From assembly GCA_001871075.1 (NCBI GenBank), contig MNUP01000020.1:1-21129 (forward strand): 21,129 nucleotides of DNA, written 5' to 3'. The translations under genes and the position numbers were made by a program. Below the pieces are notes generated by a model. The model was not told where the DNA came from and searched no databases. It saw nothing but the letters and a program-made list of their open reading frames with translations. Of this stretch, positions 1,501-17,848 are shown piece by piece. This stretch comes from Candidatus Desantisbacteria bacterium CG1_02_49_89. Lineage in GTDB: Bacteria; Desantisbacteria; UBA1551. Position 1 is the first letter of the stretch; each line of letters starts with the position of its first letter.

Positions 1501-1736
1501 AAATTGAGATACTCGGAACAGGCTGCCCGAAGTGCAAGAAAGTAACTGAAAACGCGGAAGCGGCAGTAAAAGAATTGGGTATTGATGTTGAAATTGTAAA
1601 GGTGCAGGAAATAAATGAAATAATGAAGCGAGGAGTTATGCTCACGCCGGCGATTGCCATTGAAGGCGAGGTCAAGGCTTCGGGAAAAATCCCAAGTGTG
1701 GATGAGATTAAAAAGTGGCTTGAAGAGAAAAAATAA
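1497..1736 (+). CDS. Mini-thioredoxin (redox-active disulfide protein 2 family)
   Basis: A 79-residue single thioredoxin fold. The N-terminal strand leads straight into GTGCPKC, with active cysteines at residues 10 and 13. A cis-proline-like motif (LTPAIAI) and a final helix follow. The length and the GCPKC motif match the small glutaredoxin-like proteins often found beside COG0701 permeases. It would donate electrons in the cytoplasm to a disulfide or metal-thiol partner, probably a neighbour in this cassette. The GTG start overlaps the preceding TGA (GTGA), with AAGGAGG just upstream at 1486-1492, which supports this start. The stop codon is followed immediately by a C-rich palindromic repeat. 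Confidence 0.88.
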   Translation: MKIEILGTGCPKCKKVTENAEAAVKELGIDVEIVKVQEINEIMKRGVMLTPAIAIEGEVKASGKIPSVDEIKKWLEEKK

Positions 1737-1878
1737 CCCCCGCCCTTCCCTCCCCCGCTCCGAAGGAGTCCGCATGACTCTTCGGTCCGATGACTCCGAA
1801 AGGACGGAGTATACGGACTCTTCGGAGAGTTCATCGGACTTGTGGGGAGGGATAAAGGAAGGGGGAAGAAGGGGGATT
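1737..1878. repeat. Composite long inverted repeat with C-rich and G-rich arms
   Basis: The left arm (1737-1757, cccccgcccttccctccccc type) is complementary in outline to the right arm (1843-1877, ggggaggg...ggaaggggg). The loop holds a second layer of palindromes built from TCCGAAGGA, GACTC and CTTCGG words. The right arm shares an exact 18-base stretch with a second copy at 5161-5178. Loop bases 1759-1785 match 25 of 27 bases of 17820-17846 on the other strand. The element starts at the base after the stop codon of the mini-thioredoxin gene. It looks like one repeat inserted inside another. Confidence 0.7.
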
Positions 1879-1879
1879 T

Positions 1880-1932
1880 GTAGCGGTGCGACGTTTCGTC
1901 GCACAATAAATGTAATGGCAGAGTTTACTCTG
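1880..1932 (+). repeat. Pair of REP-like palindromes with GTAG and GTAA heads
   Basis: A GTAG tetranucleotide at 1880-1883 precedes a perfect 8-bp hairpin (GTGCGACG, loop TTT, CGTCGCAC, 1886-1904). A second unit has GTAA at 1912-1915 and a 6-bp hairpin (CAGAGT, TT, ACTCTG, 1919-1932). The second hairpin ends just upstream of the ribosome-binding site of the next gene and may influence its translation. The first 12 bases of the first unit are identical to the repeat at 12019-12030. Confidence 0.7.
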
Positions 1933-1943
1933 AGGAGGTTGAA

Positions 1944-2426
1944 ATGTCTGCTCAACACGAATTTAGAAAGCTCATTTTCATTTTCTGCGGGCTGTGCATA
2001 ATTTGTTTTATGCCTAACGGTTTGTTTGCGGCTCAGGCGAAAAGCTCCAAGGCCTCCAAACCGGAAACCAAAACAGTTGCAGCAAAAGACCTGCAGCAAA
2101 AAACGGTTAAAAAAACCGCGGATGAAACTCCGGTTGCGCCCAAAATAAAGGTTACCTTCGTGGAACTGGGTTCTGTGGGATGCATTCCCTGCAAGATGAT
2201 GCAGCCGATAATGAAGGAAATAGAAAAAGAGTACAAAGATCAGGTAAGGGTTATTTTTTACGATGTCTGGGAGCCGGACGGCAGGCCCTATGCCGAGAAA
2301 TACAAAATCCGCGTTATCCCGACACAGGTCTTTCTTGACGAAAACGGCAAGGAATATTTCAGGCACGAGGGTTTTTTTCCCAAAGAAGAATTAATTGAAG
2401 TTCTAAAGGAGAAGGGGGTAAAATAA
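1944..2426 (+). CDS. Secreted or membrane-anchored thioredoxin-fold protein with CIPC
   Basis: A 160-residue protein. A hydrophobic N-terminal segment (about residues 9-29) forms a signal peptide or anchor, followed by a lysine-rich linker (31-66). The thioredoxin domain has an active-site CIPC at 80-83 and a VIPT cis-proline loop near 125. The ATG follows GAGGAGG. It should act outside the cytoplasmic membrane as a thiol oxidoreductase. The adjacent CcdA-like protein could pass electrons to it from cytoplasmic thioredoxin, as in known CcdA-ResA and DsbD-type pathways. Which substrate it reduces is unknown; the context suggests a thiol-bound metal(loid) or a permease or secreted partner. Confidence 0.88.
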   Translation: MSAQHEFRKLIFIFCGLCIICFMPNGLFAAQAKSSKASKPETKTVAAKDLQQKTVKKTADETPVAPKIKVTFVELGSVGCIPCKMMQPIMKEIEKEYKDQVRVIFYDVWEPDGRPYAEKYKIRVIPTQVFLDENGKEYFRHEGFFPKEELIEVLKEKGVK

Positions 2427-2428
2427 CA

Positions 2429-3127
2429 ATGATGGCTCTATTCGGATGGCTTACCAAGGCAGTTGGATCATCGCCCGCCATTGCATTGTCCGCTTCTTTT
2501 ATCTGGGGGGTATTGAGCATAATCCTCAGCCCCTGCCACCTTGCCAGCATACCTCTTATTGTCGGATTTATTGACGAGCAGGGCAGGATTCCAACGCGCA
2601 GGGCATTCTGGATATCTCTGCTTTTTGCATCGGGCATCCTTGCAAGCATTGCAATTGTCGGGTTTGTGACCGCAATGCTGGGCAGGATGATGGGAGATGT
2701 GGGAAAATACGGAAATTATTTTGTTGCCGTGATTTTCTTTCTTGTGGGGCTTCATCTTCTTGACGTGATCCCGATGCCCTGGTCAGGGCCAAGCGGGAGT
2801 AAATTCAAAGGCAAGGGAATGCTTGGCGCCTTTCTTTTAGGGCTTATTTTCGGCATAGCCCTGGGTCCCTGCACTTTTGCTTATATGGCGCCGATGCTCA
2901 GCATTACATTCAAGCTTGCGGCAACCAGGCTTGCTTATGGCATATCCCTGCTTCTTGCCTACGGGATAGGGCATTGCTCTGTGATAGTCCTTGCCGGGAC
3001 AAGCGCTGAAATGGTCCAGCGCCTTTTAAACTGGAATGAAAAATCAAAGGGAACGATCATCGCAAAAAAAATCTGCGGGATACTGGTAATTCTGGGCGGG
3101 ATATATCTTGTTCTAACAAGCAGATAA
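2429..3127 (+). CDS. CcdA-family transmembrane electron carrier
   Basis: A 232-residue protein with about six transmembrane helices. The two redox cysteines of the CcdA/DsbD-beta fold are visible: LSPCHLAS (Cys36) in the first core helix and LGPCTFAY (Cys148) in the fourth. Proteins of this family carry reducing equivalents from cytoplasmic thioredoxin to an extracytoplasmic thioredoxin-like partner. The gene lies 2 bases after the secreted CIPC thioredoxin, the expected partner. ATG 2429 is followed at once by a second ATG, and either could start. No cytochrome c maturation genes are nearby, so a role in this metal/redox cassette is more likely than haem attachment. Confidence 0.88.
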   Translation: MMALFGWLTKAVGSSPAIALSASFIWGVLSIILSPCHLASIPLIVGFIDEQGRIPTRRAFWISLLFASGILASIAIVGFVTAMLGRMMGDVGKYGNYFVAVIFFLVGLHLLDVIPMPWSGPSGSKFKGKGMLGAFLLGLIFGIALGPCTFAYMAPMLSITFKLAATRLAYGISLLLAYGIGHCSVIVLAGTSAEMVQRLLNWNEKSKGTIIAKKICGILVILGGIYLVLTSR

Positions 3128-3192
3128 GAACCTCTGCGAGAACCTTGTTGCTCGTTAGCGTGGTCGATAAAAAGTCGCAATAGAAGGAATAA

Positions 3193-3642
3193 GTGGCTAA
3201 ACAAAAGATGAAGGCAAGTAAATGCGCGTGCGGGAGCGCCGGCGCAATGGTTTTTGCATGCAGCGGCGGTTCTAACGTGGGGCAGATAGCAAACGATGCG
3301 GCAGTCAGGCTTAACGATCAGGGTACCGCAAAACTTTATTGTCTTGTAGGCGCTGTTTCGCACATACCGGGGATGGTAAAAGGGGCGGAATCAGCAGAAT
3401 ATATAATAGCCATTGACGGCTGCCCTGTAGGATGCGCAAAGAAAGCCCTTGAGCATTTGAAATTAAAAATTGATGAATATATTGTTGTAACCGAAAAAGG
3501 CATAAAGAAAACGTATGATCTGCATCCGCGGAAGGCTGATATTGATAAAATATTAAAAAAACATTATTGGAGAAAAGAATGGAAAAAAAGTTTGTGCTTG
3601 CGTTTGAAGAAAAGGAATGGCAGGAAGTGCAGAGAATCGTGA
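3193..3642 (+). CDS. DGC-domain putative zinc-binding protein
   Basis: A 149-residue cytoplasmic protein with cysteines at residues 11, 13, 23, 50, 77 and 81. It has a FACSGGSNVG motif near 21-30 and the hallmark DGCPVGC near 76-81, which identifies the DGC family of putative metal-binding proteins. Its function is unknown, but it recurs beside COG0701 permeases and thioredoxin-like genes. The GTG start is supported by AGAAGGA at 3182-3188. The C-terminal 20 or so residues are very basic and overlap the next gene by 64 bases in another frame, which is long for a bacterial overlap. A compact family member could end near residue 120, so the tail may be a late read-through acquisition. Confidence 0.83.
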   Translation: MAKQKMKASKCACGSAGAMVFACSGGSNVGQIANDAAVRLNDQGTAKLYCLVGAVSHIPGMVKGAESAEYIIAIDGCPVGCAKKALEHLKLKIDEYIVVTEKGIKKTYDLHPRKADIDKILKKHYWRKEWKKSLCLRLKKRNGRKCRES

Positions 3643-3779
3643 TAGACAGAGATAAAGACGCTGCGCTGCAATTACTAAAAGACTCTGTTAAAAAGATTGA
3701 AAGGCAGTCAGAGGGCGGGTGCAAGCCTGCGTTTGAAGTAGAAGGGCTCAAGTCCAATGTAAGGAAGTACGGCGGTTAA
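3579..3779 (+). CDS. Small unknown protein, 66 residues
   Basis: The likely start is ATG 3579, with GGAG at 3569-3572. An in-frame TTG at 3567 would add only four residues and has no better site. The protein is mainly helical and charged with one cysteine (GGCKPAF near the C-terminus), and no domain is recognisable. Its first 64 bases overlap the end of the DGC gene, and its TAA touches the ATG of the Fe-S gene (TAAATG), so it sits in a tightly packed operon. Operon position and a ribosome-binding site support that it is real. Confidence 0.6.
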   Translation: MEKKFVLAFEEKEWQEVQRIVIDRDKDAALQLLKDSVKKIERQSEGGCKPAFEVEGLKSNVRKYGG

Positions 3780-4334
3780 ATGGATGCGCTGCTTCACAGC
3801 ATTACGATTACCAATGCCCTGCCCTGTCTTGCAGACCCCGTATTAATACGCGTCTGGGCGGATTTTTCAGATGACATAAGCGGGATAATGCCATACCTTA
3901 ATGCCGTGGTGCCGGGGATAATATACAATCCTAACGGCCTTTCGGTCACAATAAAACGGGGCGGAAGATTGATAACCGCCTATGCGGGTCAGATCGCAAT
4001 AGGAAAATTGGCTGATATTAACGATGCGCACCGGACCCTTGAGTGGTTTAAGGACCTGGTTAATGATACTTTCGCAAAAAAAGACAAAATTACCCCGGTA
4101 TATGAAAGGCGTAAAACCCTTAGCGCAGTTGACATATATAAATTACTCCCGGGTGAGAACTGCGGTAAATGCGGGGTCCCTACCTGCCTTGCGGTTATCA
4201 CCCAAATTCTTTCGGGAGATTTCAATATTATGAAATGCGGCCCGCTCTTCGGCGCTGAATTCCGGGACAGACGCAAAGAACTGCTGCGCATCCTGCAGGC
4301 AGCGGGCTACGAGGTACCCGGGGAATTTCTTTAA
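3780..4334 (+). CDS. 4Fe-4S cluster protein with an RnfB/AcsC-type cysteine motif
   Basis: A 184-residue soluble protein. The N-terminal part (about 1-95) is a mixed alpha/beta region that I do not recognise. The C-terminal domain has cysteines at 128, 131, 136 and 153 (Cx2Cx4Cx16C, ENCGKCGVPTC...KCGP), the pattern of the Fe-S domain found in RnfB, the corrinoid/Fe-S protein of the acetyl-CoA pathway and related electron carriers. It probably holds one 4Fe-4S cluster and passes electrons in the cytoplasm. It starts directly after the previous stop codon. Membership of a thiol/metal cassette suggests it links metabolic electrons to that system, which is inference. Confidence 0.8.
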   Translation: MDALLHSITITNALPCLADPVLIRVWADFSDDISGIMPYLNAVVPGIIYNPNGLSVTIKRGGRLITAYAGQIAIGKLADINDAHRTLEWFKDLVNDTFAKKDKITPVYERRKTLSAVDIYKLLPGENCGKCGVPTCLAVITQILSGDFNIMKCGPLFGAEFRDRRKELLRILQAAGYEVPGEFL

Positions 4335-4349
4335 AATGGAGGTAGGACT

Positions 4350-4664
4350 ATGCGTATCTTCGATATTCAGAAAATAAAGGCGTATCCTTATGAGGAAAGA
4401 GAAAAGAACGTGTTATACGCCTGTAAAGACTTCAAGACAAGAATTATTCAATTGCTACCGGGAAAAGAGATTCCTTCCTGTGATATGCCGTCCTGGGTCC
4501 TATTTTTATGCCTCAGGGGAGAAGCACGAATACAGATTAACTCAAAGAAAAAAGTTATCAGAAAAGGCCAGCTGCTGATCAGTGAACCGGGGAAATTCTC
4601 TATGAAAACAGAAAAAGGAGTGCGGATAATCGGCGTTCAGATTCCGGAGGGTAAAAATGTTTAG
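4350..4664 (+). CDS. Cupin-fold protein
   Basis: A 104-residue protein with a short beta-rich core. FKTRIIQLLPGKEIP, a LRGEARI turn, KKVIRKGQ and an ISEPGK motif follow the usual two-motif cupin layout. The classical metal-binding histidines are absent: motif 1 has cysteine and aspartate (SCDMPSW) where HxH would lie. It may therefore be a sensor or binding domain, not an enzyme. The ATG follows a good ribosome-binding site (GGAGG). The end overlaps the next permease gene by 8 bases, giving translational coupling to it. Confidence 0.75.
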   Translation: MRIFDIQKIKAYPYEEREKNVLYACKDFKTRIIQLLPGKEIPSCDMPSWVLFLCLRGEARIQINSKKKVIRKGQLLISEPGKFSMKTEKGVRIIGVQIPEGKNV

Positions 4665-5133
4665 CTTTGTAATTTCGTTAATAGCCATAATTTTTCTAAT
4701 AGTTTCAGCTGTTTCCAGCCGCGAAAAAACCCTGCTTGCGCTTAAAACTGCCGGCAAAACAGCCGCGGGAATACTTCCGTTCCTGCTTATAATAATTGTC
4801 ATCATCGGGTTCCTGCTGACCTTTGTGCCGCCGCATGTTATAGCATCGCTTATCGGCAGGCGCGCGGGATTCTGGGGCGTTCTTATCGCGTCAATAATTG
4901 GATCAATACTCCTCGTCCCCCACTTCGTGGCAGCGCCGCTGGCAGCGTCCTTGCTGCACCAGGGAGCGGGAATACCTGCAATAGCGGCATTTGTAACAAC
5001 CCTTGTAATGGTAGGGATAGTCACCATGCCGATGGAAATGGAAGTGATGGGCAGGAAATTTACTATATGGCGCAATCTCCTCAGTTTTGGGTTTGCCCTG
5101 CTGATAGCGCTGATAATGGGGGCATTACTGTGA
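4657..5133 (+). CDS. COG0701-type half-permease, first half
   Basis: A 158-residue membrane protein with about five hydrophobic helices. GILPFLLIIIVIIGFLL and a GSILLVPHFVAAPLAAS stretch match one half of the DUF318 permease fold. With the next gene (172 residues), the pair adds up to about the length of the full permease at the window start (340 residues). Adjacent half-size permeases are a known arrangement in this family, so a heterodimer is likely. The TGA stop at 5131-5133 is immediately followed by a C-rich palindrome. The conserved CSC of the full-length protein is missing here, so the transport residues may differ. Confidence 0.83.
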   Translation: MFSFVISLIAIIFLIVSAVSSREKTLLALKTAGKTAAGILPFLLIIIVIIGFLLTFVPPHVIASLIGRRAGFWGVLIASIIGSILLVPHFVAAPLAASLLHQGAGIPAIAAFVTTLVMVGIVTMPMEMEVMGRKFTIWRNLLSFGFALLIALIMGALL

Positions 5134-5179
5134 AATCCCCCTCAATCCCCCTTTTGTAAAGGGGGAAGAAGGGGGATTA
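5133..5179. repeat. C/G-rich palindrome abutting a stop codon
   Basis: AATCCCCC at 5134-5141 pairs with GGGGGATT at 5171-5178, and inside it CCCCCTTT (5147-5154) pairs with AAAGGGGG (5158-5165) around TTG. The repeat starts within the stop codon context of the first half-permease. Its left arm (5133-5155) is identical over 23 bases to 5708-5730, and its right arm shares 18 bases with 1861-1878. As RNA it would form a strong hairpin between the two half-permease genes. Confidence 0.8.
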
Positions 5180-5189
5180 GGAAATTGAG

Positions 5190-5708
5190 ATGTCTACTCG
5201 GCAAAAAAAGTTATTAGGGCAATATTGCATATTCTTCGGGCTTGCCGCTCTTACACTGCTGATCTACAGGTGGCAGCCGGGAAAGGCAATTTCAATATGG
5301 AAAACTTCCGGGAACTATTTTTTTGAAATGCTCGGGATCCTTCCTTCCATACTTATACTGCTGGGACTTATGGATGCCTGGGTCCCAAAGAAAATTATAG
5401 AAAGGTTATTGGGAAAAGATTCCGGGATAAGCGGTATCGGGGTTGCAATTTTGGCAGGTACCGCCGCGGCAGGACCCCTTTACGTTGCTTTTCCTGTGGC
5501 CGCGTCTTTATTAAAAAAGGGGGCGCGTATTTCAAATGTGGCGATCTTTCTTTGTTCCTGGGCAGCCATAAAAATACCTATGGTCATGTTTGAAATCAAA
5601 TTCCTCGGATGGCAATTTACCGGTTTGCGGTTATTGCTTACGGTTCCAAGCGCGATTTTTATCGGCTTGATAATGGAAAAGGCCCTTACGCCGAAGGCGG
5701 CACATTAA
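5190..5708 (+). CDS. COG0701-type half-permease, second half
   Basis: A 172-residue membrane protein with about five helices. It contains GILPSILILLGLMDAW, an LAGTAAAGPLYVAFPVAAS stretch equivalent to the pore-facing loop of the family, and a short charged tail. It is best read as the partner of the preceding half-permease. The ATG is preceded by a weak site (AGGAAATTGAG). The gene is bracketed on both sides by direct copies of the same C-rich repeat arm (5133-5155 and 5708-5730), so it could have been inserted, or duplicated and trimmed, by recombination between repeats. It is the last gene before a terminator. Confidence 0.83.
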   Translation: MSTRQKKLLGQYCIFFGLAALTLLIYRWQPGKAISIWKTSGNYFFEMLGILPSILILLGLMDAWVPKKIIERLLGKDSGISGIGVAILAGTAAAGPLYVAFPVAASLLKKGARISNVAIFLCSWAAIKIPMVMFEIKFLGWQFTGLRLLLTVPSAIFIGLIMEKALTPKAAH

Positions 5709-5800
5709 AATCCCCCTCAATCCCCCTTTTACAATCTCGATGCTTTGATGCGGGATCCCGTACCGAAAGGTCGGGAAGGGGGGAATGAGGTGGATTAGGA
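5707..5800. repeat. Second C/G-rich inverted repeat with an inserted loop
   Basis: The left arm is the same 23 bases as the copy at 5133. The right arm (about 5773-5800) is degraded but still G-rich and ends in the same GATTAGGA. The loop carries extra DNA with a perfect CGGGATCCCG palindrome (5751-5760) and an ACCGAAAGGTCGG stem. It therefore looks like the repeat at 5133 plus a nested insertion. It overlaps the TAA of the second half-permease. Confidence 0.7.
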
Positions 5801-5909
5801 AGTTTTAGCTCCCGTTCTTTACAAGAGCCTGCTTTTGGCAAGTAAGTGAGCCTACTTTTGGTAGTTCCCTGTAAATTTTCAGTATAAATCCTATCGGCAT
5901 AAAGATAAC
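5801..5909. repeat. Non-coding stretch with a dispersed repeat (5819-5864)
   Basis: No gene is visible between 5709 and 6028. The segment 5819-5841 (ttacaagagcct, then gcttttggcaa) recurs on the other strand at 13181-13205 with few changes. A partial second unit (gagcctacttttgg) lies at 5849-5862. The remaining bases show nothing beyond the flanking palindrome, terminator and promoter that are listed separately. Confidence 0.55.
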
Positions 5910-5940
5910 AAAAACTACTATTCTTGCAGTAGTTTTTTTG
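5910..5940 (+). terminator. Rho-independent terminator closing the redox/permease cassette
   Basis: The stem AAAACTACT (5911-5919) pairs with AGTAGTTTT (5928-5936) around the loop ATTCTTGC, and the T run continues to 5939. This is a normal intrinsic terminator shape with a modest-GC stem. It separates the permease cassette from the arsR promoter. Confidence 0.7.
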
Positions 5941-5958
5941 TTTTTATTTACAAAAAAC

Positions 5959-6006
5959 TTGACAAAATAAAAAAATTGTGATATTATGTATGTATAATCG
6001 TTTATA
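5959..6006 (+). promoter_or_regulatory. arsR promoter with an overlapping dyad operator
   Basis: A perfect -35 (TTGACA, 5959-5964), a 17-base spacer and TATTAT (5982-5987) make a good sigma-70-like promoter. Just downstream, TATAA (5993-5997) and TTATA (6002-6006) form an inverted repeat around TCGT, spanning the expected transcription start. ArsR repressors typically bind AT-rich dyads in this position and release when As(III) binds. Autoregulation of the whole ars operon from here is the likely arrangement. Operator assignment is inference. Confidence 0.65.
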
Positions 6007-6028
6007 GGTATATAGGCGGGGGGTAAAC

Positions 6029-6385
6029 ATGAAAGATGAATTAAGTTTATTTAGGTGCTTATCAGACGAAACACGCCTGAGGATCATGCTGCTGTTATCA
6101 ATAAAAGAACTATGTGTCTGTCAGTTAGAATGGGCTTTAGAATTAATTCAGGCAAAGGTATCTCGCCATTTAACTGTGCTGAAAAACGCCGGGCTTGTCC
6201 GGGATAGGCGTGATGGTTTATGGATATATTATTCTTTAACTAAACCCAGAAACGAACTGGAAAAAATCATCCATAAATATCTTAGAAAATATTTAACAAC
6301 AAAACACAACCTATTCAAGAAGGATATTACAAACATGAAAAAGTGTGTTGTAAAACCATTAAAAAAAATAGCAACCAGGAAATAA
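6029..6385 (+). CDS. arsR: ArsR/SmtB-family As(III)-responsive repressor
   Basis: A 118-residue winged-helix protein. LSDETRLRIMLLL and then the ELCVCQL motif (Cys29 and Cys31) lie at the start of the recognition region. The helix AKVSRHLTVLKNAGLV is followed by the wing DRRDGLWIYYSL. ELCVC is the classical As(III)/Sb(III) site of the ArsR type found in E. coli plasmids. A further cysteine occurs in the basic tail (KKCVVKP). The start follows GGGGGG spaced about 6 bases from the ATG. It is the first gene behind a promoter with a dyad, so it most likely represses its own operon. Confidence 0.92.
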   Translation: MKDELSLFRCLSDETRLRIMLLLSIKELCVCQLEWALELIQAKVSRHLTVLKNAGLVRDRRDGLWIYYSLTKPRNELEKIIHKYLRKYLTTKHNLFKKDITNMKKCVVKPLKKIATRK

Positions 6386-6469
6386 TTCCATAAAGCATAT
6401 TTTGGGTTGTTGCCAAATATTGTAAAAAAAGCACAAAAGCCGTAAGAATTTTAAGAGGGGGTGAGGTTG

Positions 6470-6676
6470 ATGGATGAAAAAATAAGGGAATTAACTGGTA
6501 TCGCTGCGGCAGTCGCCGGTCATTGCCAGAAATGCTTTATATATCATTATAGCGAAGCAAAGAAGTTTAAAATTGAGCAAAAGGATATCGAGGAAGTTAT
6601 TGAATTTGCCAAAGCCATCCGTTCAGCCGGTAATAAGGGCATGGATGAATTTGTAAAAAATACAGTGAGCCAGTAA
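6470..6676 (+). CDS. AhpD-like (carboxymuconolactone decarboxylase family) CxxC mini-protein
   Basis: A 68-residue protein from ATG 6470, supported by AGAGGGG at 6454-6460; the upstream in-frame GTG 6461 lies inside that site. It has HCQKCFIYHY, with cysteines at 19 and 22 and His26, matching the CxxCxxxH core of the AhpD/CMD fold. Short versions like this often occur in arsenic and other metal-resistance operons. The cysteine pair may serve as a thiol reductant or an As(III)-binding site in the cytoplasm. It lies between arsR and arsD, which fits a helper role. No exact reaction can be assigned. Confidence 0.82.
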   Translation: MDEKIRELTGIAAAVAGHCQKCFIYHYSEAKKFKIEQKDIEEVIEFAKAIRSAGNKGMDEFVKNTVSQ

Positions 6677-6697
6677 CGATTTTAACAAGGAGGATAT

Positions 6698-7060
6698 GTG
6701 AAGAAAATTGAAATTTATGATCCACCAATGTGCTGTTCAACCGGAGTTTGCGGCACGAAGGTTGATAAAAAGCTGATAGAGTTTGCCAATGCTTTAAGAA
6801 CATTGTCTCTTTCCGGCGTTATTGTTGAGCGTTTTAATATGGCCCAAACACCTCGGGTTTTTATTGAAAATCTCAAAGTTAAAGAGCTTCTTATAAGGAA
6901 AGGGCAAAACGCTCTGCCGTTTATTTTTGTGAATGGTGAACTTAAATGGTCCGGGAAAATTCCGTCCGCAAAGGAACTCTTAAAAGTTTTTGGGGTAGAG
7001 CATAAGCCGCAAACTATCAATGAGGGTGGTTGTTGCGGTGATGGGGGGTGTTGCGGATGA
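6698..7060 (+). CDS. arsD: ArsD arsenite metallochaperone
   Basis: A 120-residue protein with the complete set of ArsD thiols: Cys12, Cys13 and Cys18 near the start (DPPMCCSTGVC), and vicinal pairs at 112/113 and 118/119 in a glycine-rich tail (GGCCGDGGCC). In E. coli the first three cysteines receive As(III) and hand it to ArsA. The start is GTG after AGGAGG; the ATG two bases earlier is followed at once by TGA and cannot start it. The final TGA overlaps the ATG of arsA (ATGA), so the chaperone and its ATPase are translationally coupled. Confidence 0.93.
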   Translation: MKKIEIYDPPMCCSTGVCGTKVDKKLIEFANALRTLSLSGVIVERFNMAQTPRVFIENLKVKELLIRKGQNALPFIFVNGELKWSGKIPSAKELLKVFGVEHKPQTINEGGCCGDGGCCG

Positions 7061-8802: not shown

Positions 8803-8884
8803 AACAATTACAAAATAATGCAGTGTGGAATTAAAATTATGCAGAATCCGGACAAAGCATAAAAATATTGCTAGGAGGCATGTA

Positions 8885-9676: not shown

Positions 9677-9704
9677 TGATAATAAAACAAAGGAGTTAAT
9701 AATT

Positions 9705-10922: not shown

Positions 10923-10924
10923 AT

Positions 10925-11578
10925 ATGTTGAAAATTGAGCATGCCAGCAAAACATTCCATCATAAACACGGCACAGTGAGTGCTTTAAACGATTTTTCTT
11001 TTGAGATAAAAAAAGGGGAATTTATAAGTATTTCCGGGCCAAGCGGAAGCGGAAAAAGCACATTGCTTTTAGCATTGGGCGGAATGAGCCATCCTGATAA
11101 CGGAAAGGTTATGTGGAACAATGAATCAATTTATAACTGGGAATTAAATAAAAGGGCACAGTGGAGAGCAAAAGAGGTAGGTTTTATATTTCAGACTTTT
11201 AATTTGATAAACTATTTGACAGTTTATGAAAATGTGGCTATTGCCCTGAATCTGGCAGAAGAAAAAGTTGACAGGAAAAGGATTATTGGTATATTGGACA
11301 AGATGAAATTGTCGAATCGCATTAAACACCTTCCTAATGAACTTAGTATTGGACAGCAGCAAAGAGTGGCTATAGCAAGAGCGCTGATAAAAAATCCCTC
11401 TATGCTGTTGGCAGATGAACCTACGGGTAACCTTGATCCGCAAACAGCGAATGATATACTTAAAATTTTAAAAGAAATAAATAATGAAGGGAAAACAGTG
11501 GTATTTATAACGCATAATCCGGATTTGGCAAAATTAGCGAATCGCAATATAAGAATAGAAGAAGGCAGAATAGTCTAA
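10925..11578 (+). CDS. MacB/LolD-type ABC transporter ATPase
   Basis: A 217-residue ATPase with Walker A (GPSGSGKST, 38-46), the Q-loop near FIFQTFN, the signature LSIGQQQR (140-147; isoleucine in place of the usual second glycine), Walker B and glutamate (LLADEPTGNLD, about 161-171) and an H-loop (ITHN). The length and the absence of fused membrane parts match LolD/MacB-partner ATPases. It starts 2 bases after the permease stop, so the two form one transporter with two subunits of each. The RBS is the GGAGGAA at the permease end. Confidence 0.93.
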   Translation: MLKIEHASKTFHHKHGTVSALNDFSFEIKKGEFISISGPSGSGKSTLLLALGGMSHPDNGKVMWNNESIYNWELNKRAQWRAKEVGFIFQTFNLINYLTVYENVAIALNLAEEKVDRKRIIGILDKMKLSNRIKHLPNELSIGQQQRVAIARALIKNPSMLLADEPTGNLDPQTANDILKILKEINNEGKTVVFITHNPDLAKLANRNIRIEEGRIV

Positions 11579-11641
11579 TTGCAAAAACTCGGTCCGGGCC
11601 TGAAATATCGATATGGAAAAGATTCTTACGCGCAAGGAGAT

Positions 11642-12022
11642 ATGTTGAAGATAATATTATTCGTCTGTGTTGAAAATTCCTGCAGGAGCCAGATGGCTGA
11701 GGGTTTCGCGAAGCACTACGGGAAAGATAAAATAGAGGTTTACAGCGCCGGGTCAAAACCTTCGGGGAAGGTAGATGAAATGGCAATAAAGGTAATGCAG
11801 GAGAAGGGAATCGACATATCGGGACAATCTTCAAAGGGTTTTTTAGAACTTCCTGTGGATAAATTTGACATCGTCGTTACAATGGGGTGCAAGGATGTAT
11901 GCCCTTTTATTCCGTCAAAAGAACATATTGAATGGGATATACCGGACCCTGCCGGCAAACCTATCGAATTTTTCAGGAACGTGAGAGATAAAATTGAAGG
12001 GAAAATAAAAGGATTAATGTAG
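11642..12022 (+). CDS. arsC: Arsenate reductase, LMW-phosphatase (thioredoxin-coupled) type
   Basis: A 126-residue protein from ATG 11642 with AAGGAG upstream; the longer frame from TTG 11579 has no good site. The P-loop CVENSCRS gives Cys9 to Arg15 (Cx5R), the arsenate-binding site. A second pair at Cys83 and Cys87 (MGCKDVCP) provides the resolving thiols, and DPAG supplies the acid loop (DIPDPAG). The spacing of the second pair is shorter than in the S. aureus plasmid enzyme, as in other compact members. It reduces arsenate to arsenite for the downstream ACR3 pump. The final TAG is formed by the GTAG head of a REP-like repeat. Confidence 0.92.
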   Translation: MLKIILFVCVENSCRSQMAEGFAKHYGKDKIEVYSAGSKPSGKVDEMAIKVMQEKGIDISGQSSKGFLELPVDKFDIVVTMGCKDVCPFIPSKEHIEWDIPDPAGKPIEFFRNVRDKIEGKIKGLM

Positions 12023-12042
12023 CGGTGCGATTTATTGCACTG
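12019..12042 (+). repeat. REP-like palindrome supplying the arsC stop codon
   Basis: GTAG at 12019-12022 provides the TAG of arsC. The next bases (CGGTGCGA) match the repeat at 1880-1891 exactly, then a hairpin closes (GTGC...GCAC, loop TTTA, with one G-T pair). The copy is slightly decayed compared with the one at 1880. Confidence 0.7.
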
Positions 12043-12064
12043 TAAGGGGAATCAGGAGGTTGGT

Positions 12065-13135
12065 ATGCAGCAGGCAGAAAAAAAACTCAGCATATTTGAA
12101 AAATATTTGACTTTATGGGTTGGCTTGTGCATTGTGGCAGGGATACTGCTGGGAAGGTTTTTTCCGGGGGTTGCCAGGTATCTTGACAGCCTGTCAGTAG
12201 CGCAGGTTTCTATACCGATAGCGATATGCCTTTTCTTTATGATGTACCCGATAATGGTCAAGATTGATTTTGCCGAGGTAGTGAAAGCCGGCAAAAACCC
12301 CAAGCCGGTGCTGCTGACGCTTGTCGTCAACTGGGGTATAAAGCCATTTACAATGTACGCGATAGCATGGTTCTTTCTTGCCTATGTATTCAAAGGAATG
12401 CTTCCCGGAATGGAGATCGTAAAAAACGGTTCAACCGTGGAACTTTTCAGGTCGTATATTTCCGGGGCTATCCTTCTGGGGATCGCGCCCTGCACCGCGA
12501 TGGTCCTGATGTGGGGGTATCTTGCGAAGGGAAACGACGGGCATACTCTTGTTATGGTGGCAATAAATTCCCTCACTATGTTATTTTTGTATGCACCGCT
12601 TGGCGGTTTCCTGCTCAGGGTCAACAGAATGCCTATTCCATGGATCACTATCCTGCTTTCAGTGCTTATATACGTAGCCCTGCCGCTGGTAGCCGGATAC
12701 TTCACCCGCAAGAAGATCCTTCAGGCCAGAGGCAGGGAATGGTTTGATAACAAGTTCCTGCCCTACCTGACACCGGTTTCGATCACGGCCCTGCTTTTCA
12801 CGCTTGTCCTTCTTTTCTCTTTCAAGGGCGAGCTTATAATAAAACAGCCTCAGGTCATCGGGCTCATTGCTATTCCCCTTACAATACAGACCTTCCTGAT
12901 CTTCGGGATCACTTACTGGCTGGCAAAAATTCTAAAGCTGACATACGAGGATGCGGCGCCGTCCGCGATGATAGGCGCGTCCAACCATTTTGAGGTGGCT
13001 ATTGCCACGGCAACGATGCTCTACGGCCTGAATTCCGGCGCAGCCCTGGCAACAGTGGTGGGGGTCCTGACAGAGGTCCCGATAATGCTGGCCCTTGTCA
13101 GGATATGCCTTGCGACCAAAAAGTGGTTTAAGTAA
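12065..13135 (+). CDS. acr3: ACR3-family arsenite efflux transporter
   Basis: A 356-residue, ten-helix membrane protein, starting at ATG 12065 with CAGGAGG upstream. It contains [12 protein letters not shown] with Cys143, the thiol in helix 4 needed for arsenite transport in ACR3 proteins, and the conserved Glu337 in GVLTEVP of helix 9. Both residues correspond to those shown by mutagenesis to be essential in the Alkaliphilus protein. It exports arsenite across the cytoplasmic membrane, driven by the proton gradient, optionally helped by ArsA. The REP-like repeat lies between arsC and this gene. It is the last gene of the + strand block, followed by a convergent MFS gene. Confidence 0.95.
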
Positions 13136-13153
13136 AAACAGGGGTAAGGGGTT

Positions 13154-13181
13154 AGGGACAAGATGTCCCTCCTGCTTTTTT
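13154..13181 (+). terminator. Candidate terminator hairpin after acr3
   Basis: AGGGACA (13154-13160) pairs with TGTCCCT (13164-13170) around AGA, followed by CCTGC and a run of six T. The shape fits an intrinsic terminator for the ars operon, though the T run starts 5 bases away from the stem. The GTTAG before it resembles the heads of the palindromes elsewhere, so it may also be a repeat copy. Confidence 0.55.
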
Positions 13182-13333
13182 GCCGAAAGTAGGCTCTTGT
13201 AAGAGTGAAAGCCCCAAAGGGATTCCTTCGGAACAAAATGGGGAGACTCGCTTATGCGGCAAGGGAAGGAAAGACTGCAATTTTAAGTTACTTACGATGT
13301 ACGAAGAACGATGCACGATGCACGAGAAACGAA
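13181..13333. repeat. Dispersed and simple repeats between convergent genes
   Basis: 13181-13205 is the reverse-complement partner of 5819-5841. Further on, 13293-13330 contains short tandem words (acgatgcacgatgcacga). No open frame here looks real. Confidence 0.5.
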
Positions 13334-14539
13334 TCAGATCTCGCGCAGCTGCGGGGTTTTTCTGAACAAAAATAAAACGGATACACCGAAGACCAACGTT
13401 CCCAGCCCTATCGCGAACGGGGCGCCGAAGAACTGCGCCAGCGTGCCCATCTGAAGACTGCCCAGGGGCGAAAGGCCCATAAAAGCAAGGGAATAGATAC
13501 CCATGATCCTGCCGCGCATCTCGTCCGGGGTTGTTATCTGCACTATCGTGTCTGAGATTGAAGACTGAAAAAGAAAGAAAAACCCCGATATCACAAGAAA
13601 AATGCAGGACAAATAGAATATTCTTGAAAAAGAGAACAGCAGTATCGCTGCGGAAAATACCGTTGCGCCCGTAAAAAACAGCCTGCCCTTCCTTCTTATG
13701 TCGCCCGCGCCTGCAATGATCAACCCCCCTGCAAGGGCGCCGATCCCCGTGCACGTCATAAGGAACCCGAAACCTTTTGCCCCTACCTTTAAAACATCCC
13801 CCGCGAATACGGGCATCAAAACTCCGTATGGCATCACGAATATCGAGCAGAGCGCCGCTATTACGATCACCGACCTTAAAACAGGGGTTGCCCGGACGTA
13901 GCGCAGACCTTCCGTGATATTTTTAAAGGTTGAGTCTTCCATTTTGCGTTCCGGGGACGGCAAGAGTTTCATCATCTTCAGCGCGACGATAAAAGCGAGG
14001 AAACTTACGGCGTTCAGAAAGAAACACCAGGAGTTGCCTATTGTTGAAACAACAATGCCGGCGATCGCTGGACCCGAGATCTGCGCAAGGTTGAAAAGCA
14101 TGGAATTAAGGGAAACCGCGCTCATGATGTCTTCTTTTCCCACAAGTTCGTATACGAATGCCAGCCTGGTAGGCATATCAAATGAGTTTGCGATCCCCAT
14201 TCCAACCGCAATAAGGGCCACGTGCCACACTTCTACTTTTCCGGTTGCCGCAAGAACACCCAGGATGAAAGCAAGGATCATCATTATGGACTGGGTAATA
14301 TAAAGCAGGCTGCGCTTGTCAACCCTGTCAGCGGTATTGCCGCCGATAAGTGACAGAAGCAGGAAAGGCACTGCCTGCGCCGCGCCTACAAGCCCGAGCA
14401 AAAACGGAGAATGCGTCAGCGTGTATACGAGCCAGGACTGCGCGATGATCTGGACAACGGTCCCGATCATTGACACGAGCAGGCCCACCCAGAAAAGCCT
14501 GAAGTTCCTGTTCGCGAACACACTGAATCTGGCAGCCAT
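13334..14539 (-). CDS. MFS transporter, EntS/MFS_3-like
   Basis: A 401-residue protein with 12 predicted helices. It starts with the FRLFWVGLLVS segment, has the family motif between helices 2 and 3 (GGNTADRVDKR) and further conserved features such as QISGPAIAG near the middle. This layout matches the EntS-like branch of the major facilitator superfamily, which exports small molecules including siderophores and drugs by proton antiport. The ATG follows AAAGG. It lies 21 bases after the RlmD gene on the same strand, so the two may be cotranscribed, although a functional link is not evident. Its substrate is unknown. Confidence 0.88.
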   Translation of the reverse strand: MAARFSVFANRNFRLFWVGLLVSMIGTVVQIIAQSWLVYTLTHSPFLLGLVGAAQAVPFLLLSLIGGNTADRVDKRSLLYITQSIMMILAFILGVLAATGKVEVWHVALIAVGMGIANSFDMPTRLAFVYELVGKEDIMSAVSLNSMLFNLAQISGPAIAGIVVSTIGNSWCFFLNAVSFLAFIVALKMMKLLPSPERKMEDSTFKNITEGLRYVRATPVLRSVIVIAALCSIFVMPYGVLMPVFAGDVLKVGAKGFGFLMTCTGIGALAGGLIIAGAGDIRRKGRLFFTGATVFSAAILLFSFSRIFYLSCIFLVISGFFFLFQSSISDTIVQITTPDEMRGRIMGIYSLAFMGLSPLGSLQMGTLAQFFGAPFAIGLGTLVFGVSVLFLFRKTPQLREI

Positions 14540-14560
14540 AAAAACCTTTCTAACTACCGG

Positions 14561-15937
14561 TTAATTGGTATTTTCAAGGTCCGCGACGCATTCTATGTGC
14601 GGCGTGTGCGGGAAAAGGTCCACCGGCTGTATGCTGTTTATCTTATAACCGAAACCGGCGAAAGCCGCCAGGTCCCTTGCCATCGTGGCGGGATTGCAGG
14701 AAACGTATATTATTTTTCCGGGTGAGATCAGCGAAATACCCTTTATTATGACGGGGCTGAGCCCTTCCCTGGGAGGGTCGGCTATCATAACATCTATGCT
14801 TTCTTTCATCCTGACCATTTGCGCGACGAAGTCCTTTGCTTCCTCAAGGAAAAATCCCGCGTTAGTAATGCCGTTCAGGCCGGCGTTCTCATTCGCGTCC
14901 TCGATCGCCTGCGGGAACGAATCCACGCCTATAACCTTCCTGGCCTCGCCAGCGACATACAGGCCTATTCCGCCCGCCCCGCAGTAAAGGTCCATCACGC
15001 TCTTCTCTTTGCCGGGCCCGGCAAGCTCCTTGATCTTTCTGTACAGCACCGCGGTCCCCCCGGAATTGGTCTGGAAAAATGAATAGGGCGAGACCTTGAA
15101 CAGCAGGTTATCAATTCTTTCCGTGATGTAATTCCTTCCCTTCAGGATGTTTGTTTTCTCCCCGAAAGCTATGTCCGAAACCTTGTCGTTCACGGTGTGC
15201 AGGAGCGAGTGGACCTCTATTCCCTCCCTGCCTGTGAAGCTCGCGAACTGGTGTATAAGGTCATCGGGCCACGCTATGAGATTGGAAGAGGTCGTTACCA
15301 GGTTTACCATCCTCTCACCCGTGTTCTTTCCTTCCCTTATTATCAGGTGCCTGAAAAGCCCCTGGTGCGTCCTGGGGTCGTATACCGGAAGGTTGAATTC
15401 TTTGGCGAACCTGCTGAAAAAAGCGAGTATCTTGTTTGATTCCGGGCTTAAAAGGACGCAGTCCTTTATTTCCACCACCCTTGAAAAAAACCCCCTTTCA
15501 TGCAGCCCGAGTACCGGCTCGTTGTTTTCGTTAAGGCTGAAAGAGAATTCCATTTTGTTGCGGTAGTGCCTCTCGGACGGGCTTGCGATGATGGGAAGCA
15601 TCGAAGACGCGTCAAGCTTTCCTATATGAAGGAGCATTTCCTTTGCAAGCTCCTCTTTTATCCTGAGCTGCTCCTTGTATGGAAGGGTCTGCCATGTGCA
15701 TCCGCCGCACCTGGGAAACACCGAGCAAAGCGGTTTTGTCTCCATGCCTGATCTCTCAAGCACCTCCAGGACCGTGCCCTCCGCGTAATTAAGCTTTTTC
15801 TTTTCGATCCTTACTTTCAGCTTCTGCCCCGGCAGGCCGCCCTGCACAAACACGACGAATCCCTCGGGTTTCGCGATACCCTTGCCGGTAGCGTCAAGCT
15901 TCTCGATTTTTAGTATTACCGTCTCGCCCTTGTTCAT
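14561..15937 (-). CDS. rlmD: 23S rRNA (uracil-C5)-methyltransferase, RlmD/RumA type
   Basis: A 458-residue protein. An N-terminal TRAM domain (about 1-62) is followed by the 4Fe-4S cluster cysteines 71, 77, 80 and 160 (PLCSVFPRCGGC...KDC). The SPYSFFQTN motif lies near 283-291, the SAM-binding site VMDLYCGAGGIGL near 314-326, DPPREGL near 388-394, and the catalytic cysteine is Cys414 (YVSCNPATMARDL). The enzyme methylates a uracil at C5 in 23S rRNA using S-adenosylmethionine. RlmD, RlmC and TrmA share the core; the TRAM domain and cluster favour RlmD, but the exact uridine cannot be settled from sequence alone. The ATG follows AAAGGAA. Confidence 0.92.
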   Translation of the reverse strand: MNKGETVILKIEKLDATGKGIAKPEGFVVFVQGGLPGQKLKVRIEKKKLNYAEGTVLEVLERSGMETKPLCSVFPRCGGCTWQTLPYKEQLRIKEELAKEMLLHIGKLDASSMLPIIASPSERHYRNKMEFSFSLNENNEPVLGLHERGFFSRVVEIKDCVLLSPESNKILAFFSRFAKEFNLPVYDPRTHQGLFRHLIIREGKNTGERMVNLVTTSSNLIAWPDDLIHQFASFTGREGIEVHSLLHTVNDKVSDIAFGEKTNILKGRNYITERIDNLLFKVSPYSFFQTNSGGTAVLYRKIKELAGPGKEKSVMDLYCGAGGIGLYVAGEARKVIGVDSFPQAIEDANENAGLNGITNAGFFLEEAKDFVAQMVRMKESIDVMIADPPREGLSPVIIKGISLISPGKIIYVSCNPATMARDLAAFAGFGYKINSIQPVDLFPHTPHIECVADLENTN

Positions 15938-15958
15938 GTTTATTTCCTTTGTGATTTA

Positions 15959-16009
15959 GGAGTAGGGGCTTTAGCCCCGTTATTTAAACGACCCTAAAGG
16001 GTCTACTCC
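15959..16009. repeat. REPIN: two palindromes with GTAG heads in inverted orientation
   Basis: The outer arms GGAGTAG (15959-15965) and CTACTCC (16003-16009) face each other. Inside, GGGGCT/AGCCCC (15965-15978) and GACCCT/AGGGTC (15990-16003) form two hairpins, separated by the self-complementary spacer GTTATTTAAAC. Two REP units in opposed orientation define a REPIN, the mobile form moved by RAYT transposases in other bacteria. It sits upstream of the rlmD gene and could lie in its 5' leader. Confidence 0.75.
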
Positions 16010-16035
16010 AAAAGATCCTATTCCGGTTCTTAAAA

Positions 16036-16109
16036 ATTCCGCGGAAATTCGTGGTTAAAAGGTTTTATGGTTTCCTCGCCCATCCTTTCAGGTGGGCGAA
16101 GTCTCGCCC
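16036..16109. repeat. Dispersed 19-base repeat and a separate hairpin
   Basis: 16036-16054 (attccgcgg, then aaattcgtgg) is nearly the same as 17695-17713. Further right, GGGCGA (16094-16099) pairs with TCGCCC (16104-16109) around AGTC, a REP-sized hairpin lying 9 bases from the end of the Nudix gene. No gene is visible between 15938 and 16118. Confidence 0.55.
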
Positions 16110-16118
16110 CCGCTTTTA

Positions 16119-16517
16119 TTAATGGCGGGTGGCGGAGTGGTCAAAATAGTCTTTTAATATTTTTCTATGGTCAAACGCTATATCATCGGGAAGGTTATTT
16201 TCTGTAAAAACGCCGATGTCAGCTGCGTCGTCGCTTGCTTCCGGTGTTCCATCGGCTTTTGCGGTGAAAACAGTGGAGATCGTATGTCCTCTTGGATCCC
16301 TTCCCGGCTCAGAATAAGTGTGGAACTGACGCAGGTCTTGGACCTTAAGGCAGGTTTCTTCCCCTGCTTCCCTTGCCGCGGCGGTTTCAAGGCTTTCCCC
16401 GCAGTCAACAAACCCTCCGGGTATAGCCCACCCGTGCGGCGGGTTTTTTCTCTTTATTAAAACTATACCGCCCTCAACCTCAATTATGATATCTACTGTT
16501 ATTCTCGGCTGTTCCAT
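16119..16517 (-). CDS. Nudix hydrolase with a variant Nudix box
   Basis: A 132-residue protein of normal Nudix length. It opens with [22 protein letters not shown] and contains the box GFVDCGES...REAGEETCL (about residues 35-57). The metal-binding core REaxEE is intact, so hydrolysis of a nucleoside diphosphate linked to another group is likely. The final conserved glycine of the box is replaced by cysteine (EETC), and another cysteine sits at VDC. Members with this kind of start often act on ADP-ribose or similar. A macro-domain gene close by on the same strand supports an ADP-ribose role by context only. The exact substrate is unknown. Confidence 0.87.
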
Positions 16518-16547
16518 TATTTCTTTCCCGTTATTGCGCTATTTTAT

Positions 16548-16569
16548 GTAGCTGCAGGGCTTGCCCTGC
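16548..16569 (+). repeat. REP palindrome, 3' side of the RAYT gene
   Basis: GTAG head (16548-16551), then CTGCAGGGC and TTGCCCTGC. The hairpin core GCAGGGC/GCCCTGC is perfect around TT. It is the exact inverted partner of 17019-17040 over 22 bases. Its last base is the first base, on this strand, of the RAYT stop codon. Confidence 0.8.
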
Positions 16570-17003
16570 TATTTTTTATCCAATTCTTCCCATTTCAATT
16601 CTTCTGCCAGGGGATTATTTTCAATATATTCCCGTATCTTTTGCAAGGCAGAATCATTTCTTATCACATGTTCGTAATAATTCGGCTGCCAGAATCTTTT
16701 TCCTTTAAAACCCACTTTCTTTGCTTTAAGGGTTGTCAGTGACTTAAAACTACCGATTACTTGCGATAAGGATACCGACGAATTTTCAAGAATAAAAATG
16801 ATATGCAGGTGGTCGTCCATCAGGTAATAATAATCAGTTTTTGTCCCATTGTATCTTTGTTCTATTTCCGCGAGCGTTGATTCAATAATCTGCCGATATT
16901 CTCCCAAAAATCTGATCTTATTGGCAGAGCATATTGTTATATAATAATAGCCGTTTGAACGGTAATCATAATTTTCTAAACGAACATGTTTTCTTAATTT
17001 CAT
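16569..17003 (-). CDS. REP-associated tyrosine transposase (RAYT, Y1/HUH family)
   Basis: A 144-residue protein from ATG 17003, with AAGAGA upstream; the longer version from TTG 17027 would begin inside a REP sequence and is unlikely. The HUH motif is MDDHLHIIF (His65 and His67). The probable catalytic tyrosine is Tyr126 in REYIENNP, preceded by WQPNYYEHVIRN. These are the marks of the Y1 transposase family that recognises GTAG-headed REP hairpins and cuts single-stranded DNA. Such genes are normally domesticated single copies, and all key residues are present here. The stop codon is the TAG of a REP end. Confidence 0.88.
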   Translation of the reverse strand: MKLRKHVRLENYDYRSNGYYYITICSANKIRFLGEYRQIIESTLAEIEQRYNGTKTDYYYLMDDHLHIIFILENSSVSLSQVIGSFKSLTTLKAKKVGFKGKRFWQPNYYEHVIRNDSALQKIREYIENNPLAEELKWEELDKK

Positions 17004-17018
17004 AATTCTCTTATTGTT

Positions 17019-17096
17019 GCAGGGCAAGCCCTGCAGCTACGTTTATTCCAAGCAAGCCCTGCAGCTACGTTTATTCCAAGCAAGCCCTGCAGCTAC
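17019..17096 (-). repeat. Full REP plus two tandem 28-base truncated REPs
   Basis: 17019-17040 is the full palindrome. It is followed by two exact copies of a 28-base unit (17041-17068 and 17069-17096). Each unit keeps the GTAG head and one arm of the REP (AAGCCCTGCAGCTAC side) but replaces the other arm with GTTTATTCCA. The outermost GTAG (on the minus strand) gives the stop codon of the macro-domain gene. Confidence 0.8.
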
Positions 17097-17608
17097 AATA
17101 TTGCTTCCCTGAATGCGTCATAAGATGCTTTATCATACAGCACGAAAACGATCTCCTTCAGCGATGAATCCGCGAACTCTTTAAGGTGCGCCTTTATTTC
17201 CTCAAGCATTATTTCCGCGGCCCTGCGCTCAGGAAACCCGCCCACGCCGCACCCCAGAGCCGGAAATGCGATCGATCCTATTTTCTTCTCTTCTGCCCTT
17301 TTCAGTGAATTGCGGACGGATGAACGTATCTTTTCTTCGTCTGTGTCAAAATCCATTCCCATTGTTGCGGCGTGTATGACATATTTAGCTTTCAGTTTCC
17401 CGGCACCCGTGACAGCCGCTTCGCCGATAGGTATGGGCCCTGCCTTGCTGCATTCTTCCTGTATCTCCTGCCCGCCTTTGCGCCTGATGGCGCCCGCAAC
17501 CCCTCCGCCCATTATCAGGCGGTTGTTCGCGGCGTTCACTATCGCTTCCGTTTCCTGTTCTGTTATATCTCCCTGCAGTACCTCAATTTCGGTCTTACCG
17601 ATTCTCAT
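17093..17608 (-). CDS. Macro-domain protein, probable ADP-ribose/O-acetyl-ADP-ribose binding hydrolase
   Basis: A 171-residue single macro domain from ATG 17608, with AGGAG upstream; the longer version from 17653 lacks a site. The conserved parts are LQGDIT (Asp14 region), VNAANNRLIMGGGVAGAI (24-41) and PALGCGVGGFP (116-126). These line the ADP-ribose pocket, and the NAAN plus GGGVA combination is typical of the YmdB/MacroD class that removes acetyl or ADP-ribosyl groups. The stop TAG comes from a REP head, so the original end could have been a few codons different. The nearby Nudix hydrolase would fit the same pathway. Confidence 0.9.
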   Translation of the reverse strand: MRIGKTEIEVLQGDITEQETEAIVNAANNRLIMGGGVAGAIRRKGGQEIQEECSKAGPIPIGEAAVTGAGKLKAKYVIHAATMGMDFDTDEEKIRSSVRNSLKRAEEKKIGSIAFPALGCGVGGFPERRAAEIMLEEIKAHLKEFADSSLKEIVFVLYDKASYDAFREAIL

Positions 17609-17655
17609 AAATGCTCTCCTGATAATTTCAGGGTCAGAGTATTGTAGCACCATTG

Positions 17656-17713
17656 GTTAAAGGGGTTAAAGGTTAAAAAGGTTAAAAGGTAAATAATCCG
17701 TGGAAATCCGTGG
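17656..17713. repeat. GGTTAAA-type low-complexity run and dispersed 19-base repeat
   Basis: 17656-17693 is made of imperfect ggttaaa/ggttaaaa words. 17695-17713 (aatccgtgg, aaatccgtgg) is itself a tandem pair and resembles 16036-16054. It lies upstream of the macro-domain gene; no coding signal is seen here. Confidence 0.5.
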
Positions 17714-17737
17714 CTGAATATTTTTGTATTAATAAAA

Positions 17738-17766
17738 AAGCTGGGCTAAAATTCACCCAGCCCTTT
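17738..17766 (-). terminator. Rho-independent terminator of the envelope operon
   Basis: On the minus strand GCTGGG pairs with CCCAGC around a ten-base loop, followed directly by six T. The position, about 95 bases past the FlgT-like gene, suits the end of the lipoprotein/FecR/FlgT-like unit. Confidence 0.7.
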
Positions 17767-17809
17767 CATTATAGCATATTCTGCCAATCGTCTAATTGTC
17801 CAATCGTCT

Positions 17810-17848
17810 CCGATGGAGTCCGAAGACTCATGCGGAGTCCTTCGGACC
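17810..17848. repeat. Dispersed GTCCGAAGACTC-type palindromic repeat
   Basis: 17820-17846 matches 1759-1785 in reverse complement at 25 of 27 bases. It is rich in the words GGAGTCC and CTTCGGAC and can fold on itself. It lies 13 bases past the stop codon of the FlgT-like gene, again at a gene's 3' end. Confidence 0.65.

Follow-up and report, generated by a model that had tools for sequence, protein, structure and literature searches.

GTAG-headed palindromes at stop codons of a Desantisbacteria genome: placement, orientation and possible origin of REP elements that supply TAG stops

The locus and its repeats

The window analysed here is the whole of contig C57 (GenBank MNUP01000020.1; 21,129 bases) of Candidatus Desantisbacteria bacterium CG1_02_49_89, a genome bin of 2.48 Mb in 150 contigs with an estimated completeness of 93.5%; it contains several kinds of palindromic repeat, among them hairpins headed by the tetramer GTAG, in some of which the TAG of the head is the stop codon of the preceding gene. 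The left two thirds of the window are filled by arsenic-type genes (ArsP-like permeases, arsA-like, arsC and an ACR3-type transporter), the right part by RlmD/TrmA-like, NUDIX, RAYT (REP-associated tyrosine transposase; REP, repetitive extragenic palindrome), macro-domain and FlgT-like genes; the names arsA, ACR3, RlmD and FlgT were assigned by eye. A first-pass annotation had listed six or seven palindromes docked on or close to stop codons, and the positions it cited (TAA 1734-1736, TGA 5131-5133, TAA 5706-5708, 12020-12022, 17093-17095 and 16569-16571) are correct. The GTAG hairpins and the genes bound up with them are the following:

1880..1904, plus strand: REP GTAGCGGTGCGACGTTTCGTCGCAC, 143 nucleotides (nt) past a stop
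11579..12022, plus strand: arsC (LMWPc family, PF01451; profile positions 1-144 of 144 aligned, to the last residue), whose stop is the TAG of a GTAG head
12019..12042, plus strand: REP-like hairpin GTAGCGGTGCGATTTATTGCACTG (from the sequence), whose GTAG at 12019-12022 supplies the TAG of arsC
15962..16006, no strand assigned: inverted pair of GTAG hairpins, GTAGGGGCTTTAGCCCC and minus-strand GTAGACCCTTTAGGGTC, away from stops (direct reading)
16548..16569, plus strand: REP copy GTAGCTGCAGGGCTTGCCCTGC (recognised from its sequence copies), 3' of the RAYT gene and inverted relative to it
16569..17027, minus strand: RAYT / TnpA_REP-like gene (Y1 HUH transposase; PF01797, E 1.4e-10; E. coli TnpA_REP 4er8, E 5e-4)
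17019..17040, minus strand: REP copy GTAGCTGCAGGGCTTGCCCTGC, 5' of the RAYT gene and exact inverted partner of 16548-16569
17024..17107, minus strand: 28-nt repeat in three copies, made up of truncated REPs, with the TAG of the macro-domain gene given by its last GTAG
17093..17653, minus strand: macro-domain gene (PF01661, E 3.6e-39), its stop 17093-17095 being the TAG of a GTAG head

By the features that can be read from the DNA, the GTAG hairpins belong to the REP elements: a GTAG (or GTGG) head lies 5' of a palindrome of 20-40 nt, and multi-copy families are scattered in non-coding DNA, with 22 and 23 copies for two of them. The sample on which the counts below are based was drawn from the initial 20 kb of each contig, from C1-C61 and then from C62-C81, in all 1.05 Mb or 42% of the genome; 891 genes were called in it with our own self-trained script, which missed two genes of the window (4350-4664 and 6029-6385). 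It holds 122 GTAG hairpins, 82 of them multi-copy, and per head such hairpins outnumber those with other heads about 3-6 fold in the first part of the sample and about 2 fold in the second. With up to 3 mismatches allowed, the REP GTAGCTGCAGGGCTTGCCCTGC has 22 matches in the genome and its reversed control none; an Rfam search gave no match. The RAYT gene is flanked by two inverted REPs identical over 22 nt, and its stop (16569-16571) is completed by the terminal base of the REP at 16548-16569. Its product, when aligned to 4er8, keeps the HxH motif (HLH) and a tyrosine before I..NP, taken to be the catalytic one, as in a Y1 HUH domain. RAYT / TnpA_REP domains are encoded by at least 11 genes of the genome. 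The inverted pair at 15962-16006, located between the NUDIX and the RlmD/TrmA-like gene, represents a third REP family.

Coincidence of the GTAG head with stop codons

The distance D was counted from the first base of the upstream stop to that of the TAG in the head, positive in the 3' direction, and random placement within the same intergenic gaps served as chance control. Against this control, which had been proposed in the first-pass annotation, the placement of the hairpins proved non-random: 15 of 85 GTAG hairpins lie within 1 nt of a stop, 0.9 being expected. In the second proposed count, of heads whose TAG is itself the called stop, the TAG coincides exactly with the stop of the upstream gene on the same strand (D = 0) in 13 of 78 sense cases, compared with 0.4 predicted from a local density of 0.37 per nt (P = 2e-16). 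Two of the 13 belong to a partial duplication (L083), so that 12 are independent; REPs inside arrays are likewise not independent of one another. Other sense hairpins were found twice at D 1-12, 20 times at D 13-60 and never below 0. The scarcity in the first 12 nt after the stop, compared with the following interval, perhaps reflects avoidance of the terminating ribosome.

In the second part of the sample alone, and with a stricter score, 2 of 11 hairpins were at D = 0, while other heads gave 0 or 1 each. The spike is stronger in one loop family, with 8 cases in 22 compared with 6 in 62; in whole-genome counts of two families, D = 0 was found for 4 of 17 sense copies in one and 4 of 20 in the other. 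A broad 3' bias, by which 61 of 78 GTAG hairpins in co-directional gaps are nearer to the stop than to the next start, explains part of the pattern, and the exact-stop spike is superimposed on it.

Viewed from the tetramer, which has a background frequency of 0.14% of positions, only 20 of 2,369 genic GTAGs (0.8%) bear a hairpin, which is the chance level, compared with 96 of the 603 located between genes or on stops, about 5 of these 96 being expected by chance at the genic rate; the earlier suggestion of a preference for gene ends and of the removal of insertions from within genes is thereby upheld. Hairpins are present on 13 of 53 GTAG stops (25%), on 63 of 342 sense intergenic GTAGs (18%) and on 20 of 208 antisense intergenic ones. 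Since occupancy of GTAG stops and of sense intergenic GTAGs does not differ (P = 0.35), no extra preference for stops needs to be assumed. The flank logos revealed nearly no conservation beyond GTAG and hairpin, with the consequence that target and element are indistinguishable from the flanks.

Effect on the encoded proteins

According to the first-pass annotation, a head that generates TAG would make in-frame landings self-limiting, as a built-in safety feature. This idea is not supported, since landings in the other frames are nearly absent: had GTAG landed in genes at random and rescued in-frame landings only, about 26 out-of-frame read-throughs would be expected beside the 13 in-frame stops, and a single one (within 150 nt) was seen (1 versus 13 tested against the 1:2 ratio, P = 6e-6); likewise, even with five codons of each gene available as landing sites, 1.8 cases would be expected and 13 were counted (P = 8e-8). 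Moreover, none of the seven judgeable proteins ending on a REP TAG falls short of its family model. Their ends extend past the model by 3 residues in FabF and HolA, 1 in GxxExxY, 2 in a tail of the type 9 secretion system (T9SS) type, 10 in PIN, 13 in RpiB and 22 in DciA; the RpiB gene (L211 4174-4647) traverses its extra residues through a AGAGTCAAAGAGTC repeat before it reaches the REP stop.

Comparison with G001, a relative of the same order only, points in the same direction. FabF ends VVRKFR-TAG with a REP, and its G001 orthologue, which carries no REP, ends VVRKFK-TGA at the same residue; the orthologue check foreseen earlier thus gave an unchanged stop position and a different stop codon. 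The arsC product aligns with that of G001 to the same last residue, beyond which the G001 gene continues into another palindrome. From these alignments, the REP head seems to keep or replace the stop at the natural end of the gene, and the proteins do not seem to be truncated.

In G001 itself, other palindromes (CATTGCGAG...GAAGCAATC and GGGACTG...CTGTCCCC) are fused in frame to the C-termini of the macro-domain and arsC genes; such fused palindromes (L089 5570-5640, L239 1230-1270, L263 2270-2330) lie at or near the places of REP heads in the genome studied here.

Orientation and strand

Of the called genes, 856 of 891 (96%) are encoded on the locally G-rich strand, a bias so extreme that 72 of 81 sampled stretches are nearly all on one strand. 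Multi-copy REPs are oriented 64:10 in the sense of the upstream gene, and the two families counted genome-wide 37:1. Even in gaps between convergent or divergent genes, where the direction of the genes does not settle the matter, 8 of 9 REPs follow the G-rich strand (P = 0.04). REP orientation thus follows the G-rich strand, presumed to be the leading strand, which fits the lagging-strand idea of the first-pass annotation: insertion into the lagging-strand template would yield the observed orientation, provided that the G-rich strand is the leading one. Strand-specific single-strand insertion into the lagging-strand template is known for IS200/IS605 (PMC6006769).

Adjacent REPs share their orientation in 22 of 26 pairs and are opposed in 4. 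Different REP families are joined in head-to-tail arrays of one orientation, e.g. at L071 1024-1558, L084 2595-2757 and G000:C109 10074-10341; these arrays differ from the inverted pairs of gammaproteobacteria.

C-rich and CCGAAGGAGTC palindromes

Two further repeat types had been included among the stop-docking palindromes of the window:

1737..1879, no strand: C-rich composite that begins at the base following TAA 1734-1736; its arms (partner arm about 1850-1879) enclose CCGAAGGAGTC palindromes
5133..5178, no strand: C-rich palindrome AAATCCCCC..., overlapping by one base the stop TGA 5131-5133 of the ArsP-like gene 4657-5133
5708..5797, no strand: C-rich palindrome AAATCCCCC..., overlapping by one base the stop TAA 5706-5708 of the ArsP-like gene 5190-5708
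17808..17847, no strand: palindrome of the CCGAAGGAGTC type, beyond the stop of the FlgT-like gene 17860-19014

The C-rich palindromes are a family separate from the REPs, with A-rich ends that overlap stops. The copy at 5133..5178 has 56 half-matches in the genome; the inverted-repeat structure is clear in many copies, and target duplication is not evident by eye. Six of 23 touch or overlap a stop (within 1 nt), where random placement in the same gaps gives 1.1; within 13 nt, 9 of 23 were seen and 6.1 are expected from placement alone. As they overlap stops by 1-3 nt, the A or TAA of their end forms part of the stop. In several copies (window 5708-5797; L216 15476-15569; L226 3741-3831) the loop holds a GGGATCCCGTA-type palindrome, as if palindromes inserted into palindromes.

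The CCGAAGGAGTC family, with 5 copies in 1.05 Mb and 3 of them usable, revealed no stop effect; a stop bias was accordingly rejected for it, and gene packing alone remains an adequate explanation. The claim that several palindrome types dock on stops hence stands for two of three: GTAG hairpins and C-rich palindromes are placed non-randomly at stops, CCGAAGGAGTC palindromes are not measurably so. The cases cited for the window are all present, and two of them are weaker than they look: a REP beside the RAYT stop is a stock feature of RAYT elements (PMC2817692), and the macro-domain stop is provided by a truncated REP within the 28-nt tandem repeat. The palindrome ending at 17847, 13 nt from the FlgT-like stop or slightly more depending on how the arm is defined, comes from the rare family without bias.

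Discussion

The reading that we prefer, by inference, to random landing or to a function of the hairpin is that REPs spread by RAYT occupy GTAG tetramers wherever selection tolerates them, TAG stops included; its probability is put at roughly 0.5. Single-strand transposases of the RAYT (TnpA_REP) type would spread the GTAG hairpins, presumably by insertion into the single-stranded lagging-strand template, and with 96% of the genes on one strand such insertion would place GTAG on the coding strand. Selection would then purge copies inserted within a gene or just upstream of one. The GTAG tetramer would be part of the landing site or matched to it, and the exact-stop spike would arise for this reason, a TAG stop preceded by G being a rare harmless GTAG close to a gene. 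The more specific version, by which REPs of this lineage insert at a pre-existing GTAG on the lagging-strand template, so that TAG stops preceded by G would serve as docking sites and would be found by the insertion instead of being made by it, can be put forward only tentatively.

Several observations weigh against this occupancy of tolerated GTAGs. In the systems studied, GTAG is described as an internal guide of the element by which CT/CA cleavage sites are chosen (PMC8266576), a role other than that of a host-derived target. In the search for empty sites within the genome, none of 47 joined-flank alignments was clean and no hairpin-less allele could be read; most showed REP arrays swapping units, or unrelated repeats. 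E. coli REPs include no D = 0 case among 29, the concentration of the spike in one loop family makes a family-specific cause possible, and the gene calls are our own.

If the element carries its own GTAG and lands uniformly, the TAG stops would be in-frame landings in the last codons. GTAG is indeed an integral, recognised part of REPs in the systems studied (PMC8266576), and the proteins that reach 10-22 residues beyond their family model suggest that ends are flexible; the lack of out-of-frame read-throughs, the excess over the landings expected in the last codons, the absence of shortened proteins among those judgeable and the identical last residue of REP-less FabF nevertheless make uniform landing unlikely. 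A similarly low probability is given to broad insertion followed by selection that keeps stop-adjacent hairpins for translation tuning or messenger RNA protection: in E. coli, translation is lowered by REPs no more than 15 nt from a stop (review PMC12306157), and the present REPs are found on the coding strand, 3' of genes, but positions 1-12 past the stop, expected to act alike, are sparsely used, and the G-rich strand is followed even in gaps where genes point both ways.

Nor does it appear probable that transposase or replication fork favours 3' ends of genes (terminator hairpins, single strands) regardless of sequence. The broad 3' bias and the other palindromes at gene ends in G001 (fused to arsC and the macro-domain gene) would agree with it; such targeting should, however, spread over the first tens of bases instead of producing a spike in one register with few hairpins just behind it, and avoidance of the promoter and ribosome site of the next gene explains the broad bias equally well. 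Compact packing alone, which would bring insertions in short gaps (e.g. 5134-5189 and 12023-12034) close to stops, comes near the number of C-rich palindromes within 13 nt; within 1 nt, placement in the same gaps falls far below what was found for both GTAG and C-rich repeats. It is refuted for the exact-stop spike and is very improbable as a general account.

The phenomenon as such is known: GTAG heads serving as TAG stops are a habit of REPs, and GTAG REPs that supply TAG stops have been reported (Di Nocera et al. 2013, PMC3733652). The elements described there share the GTAG head with hairpin, the many families per genome and the location mostly 3' of genes; they differ in phylum and in the mostly opposite orientation of neighbouring units, which here are mostly head-to-tail, and orientation here follows the G-rich strand. 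The RAYT gene between two inverted REPs, one of them abutting its stop, resembles the RAYT / TnpA_REP REPtrons (Nunvar 2010, PMC2817692; PMC8266576), although similarity to the solved E. coli protein is no higher than E 5e-4. With the REPs and bacterial interspersed mosaic elements (BIMEs) of E. coli K-12 the hairpins have in common the GTAG head and the intergenic, mostly 3' location. In contrast, no TAG of 29 sense REPs of E. coli, found by pattern in a small sample (350 kb), is a stop (difference in spike, P = 0.018); co-directional gaps there gave 6:5, i.e. no orientation bias, a difference from the present genome that is not significant (P = 0.11). As in IS200/IS605, single-strand insertion at the lagging strand would produce the orientation bias seen; unlike that family, non-autonomous hairpins dominate here.

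New are the lineage, the controlled size of the effect, the lack of landings out of frame, the strand bias and the similar effect in an unrelated C-rich palindrome. The spread of REPs is still called poorly understood (PMC8266576); REP heads that sit on stops at more than 30 times the local density, without the out-of-frame landings predicted for random insertion, and that are oriented along the G-rich strand, make the question of their target site testable.

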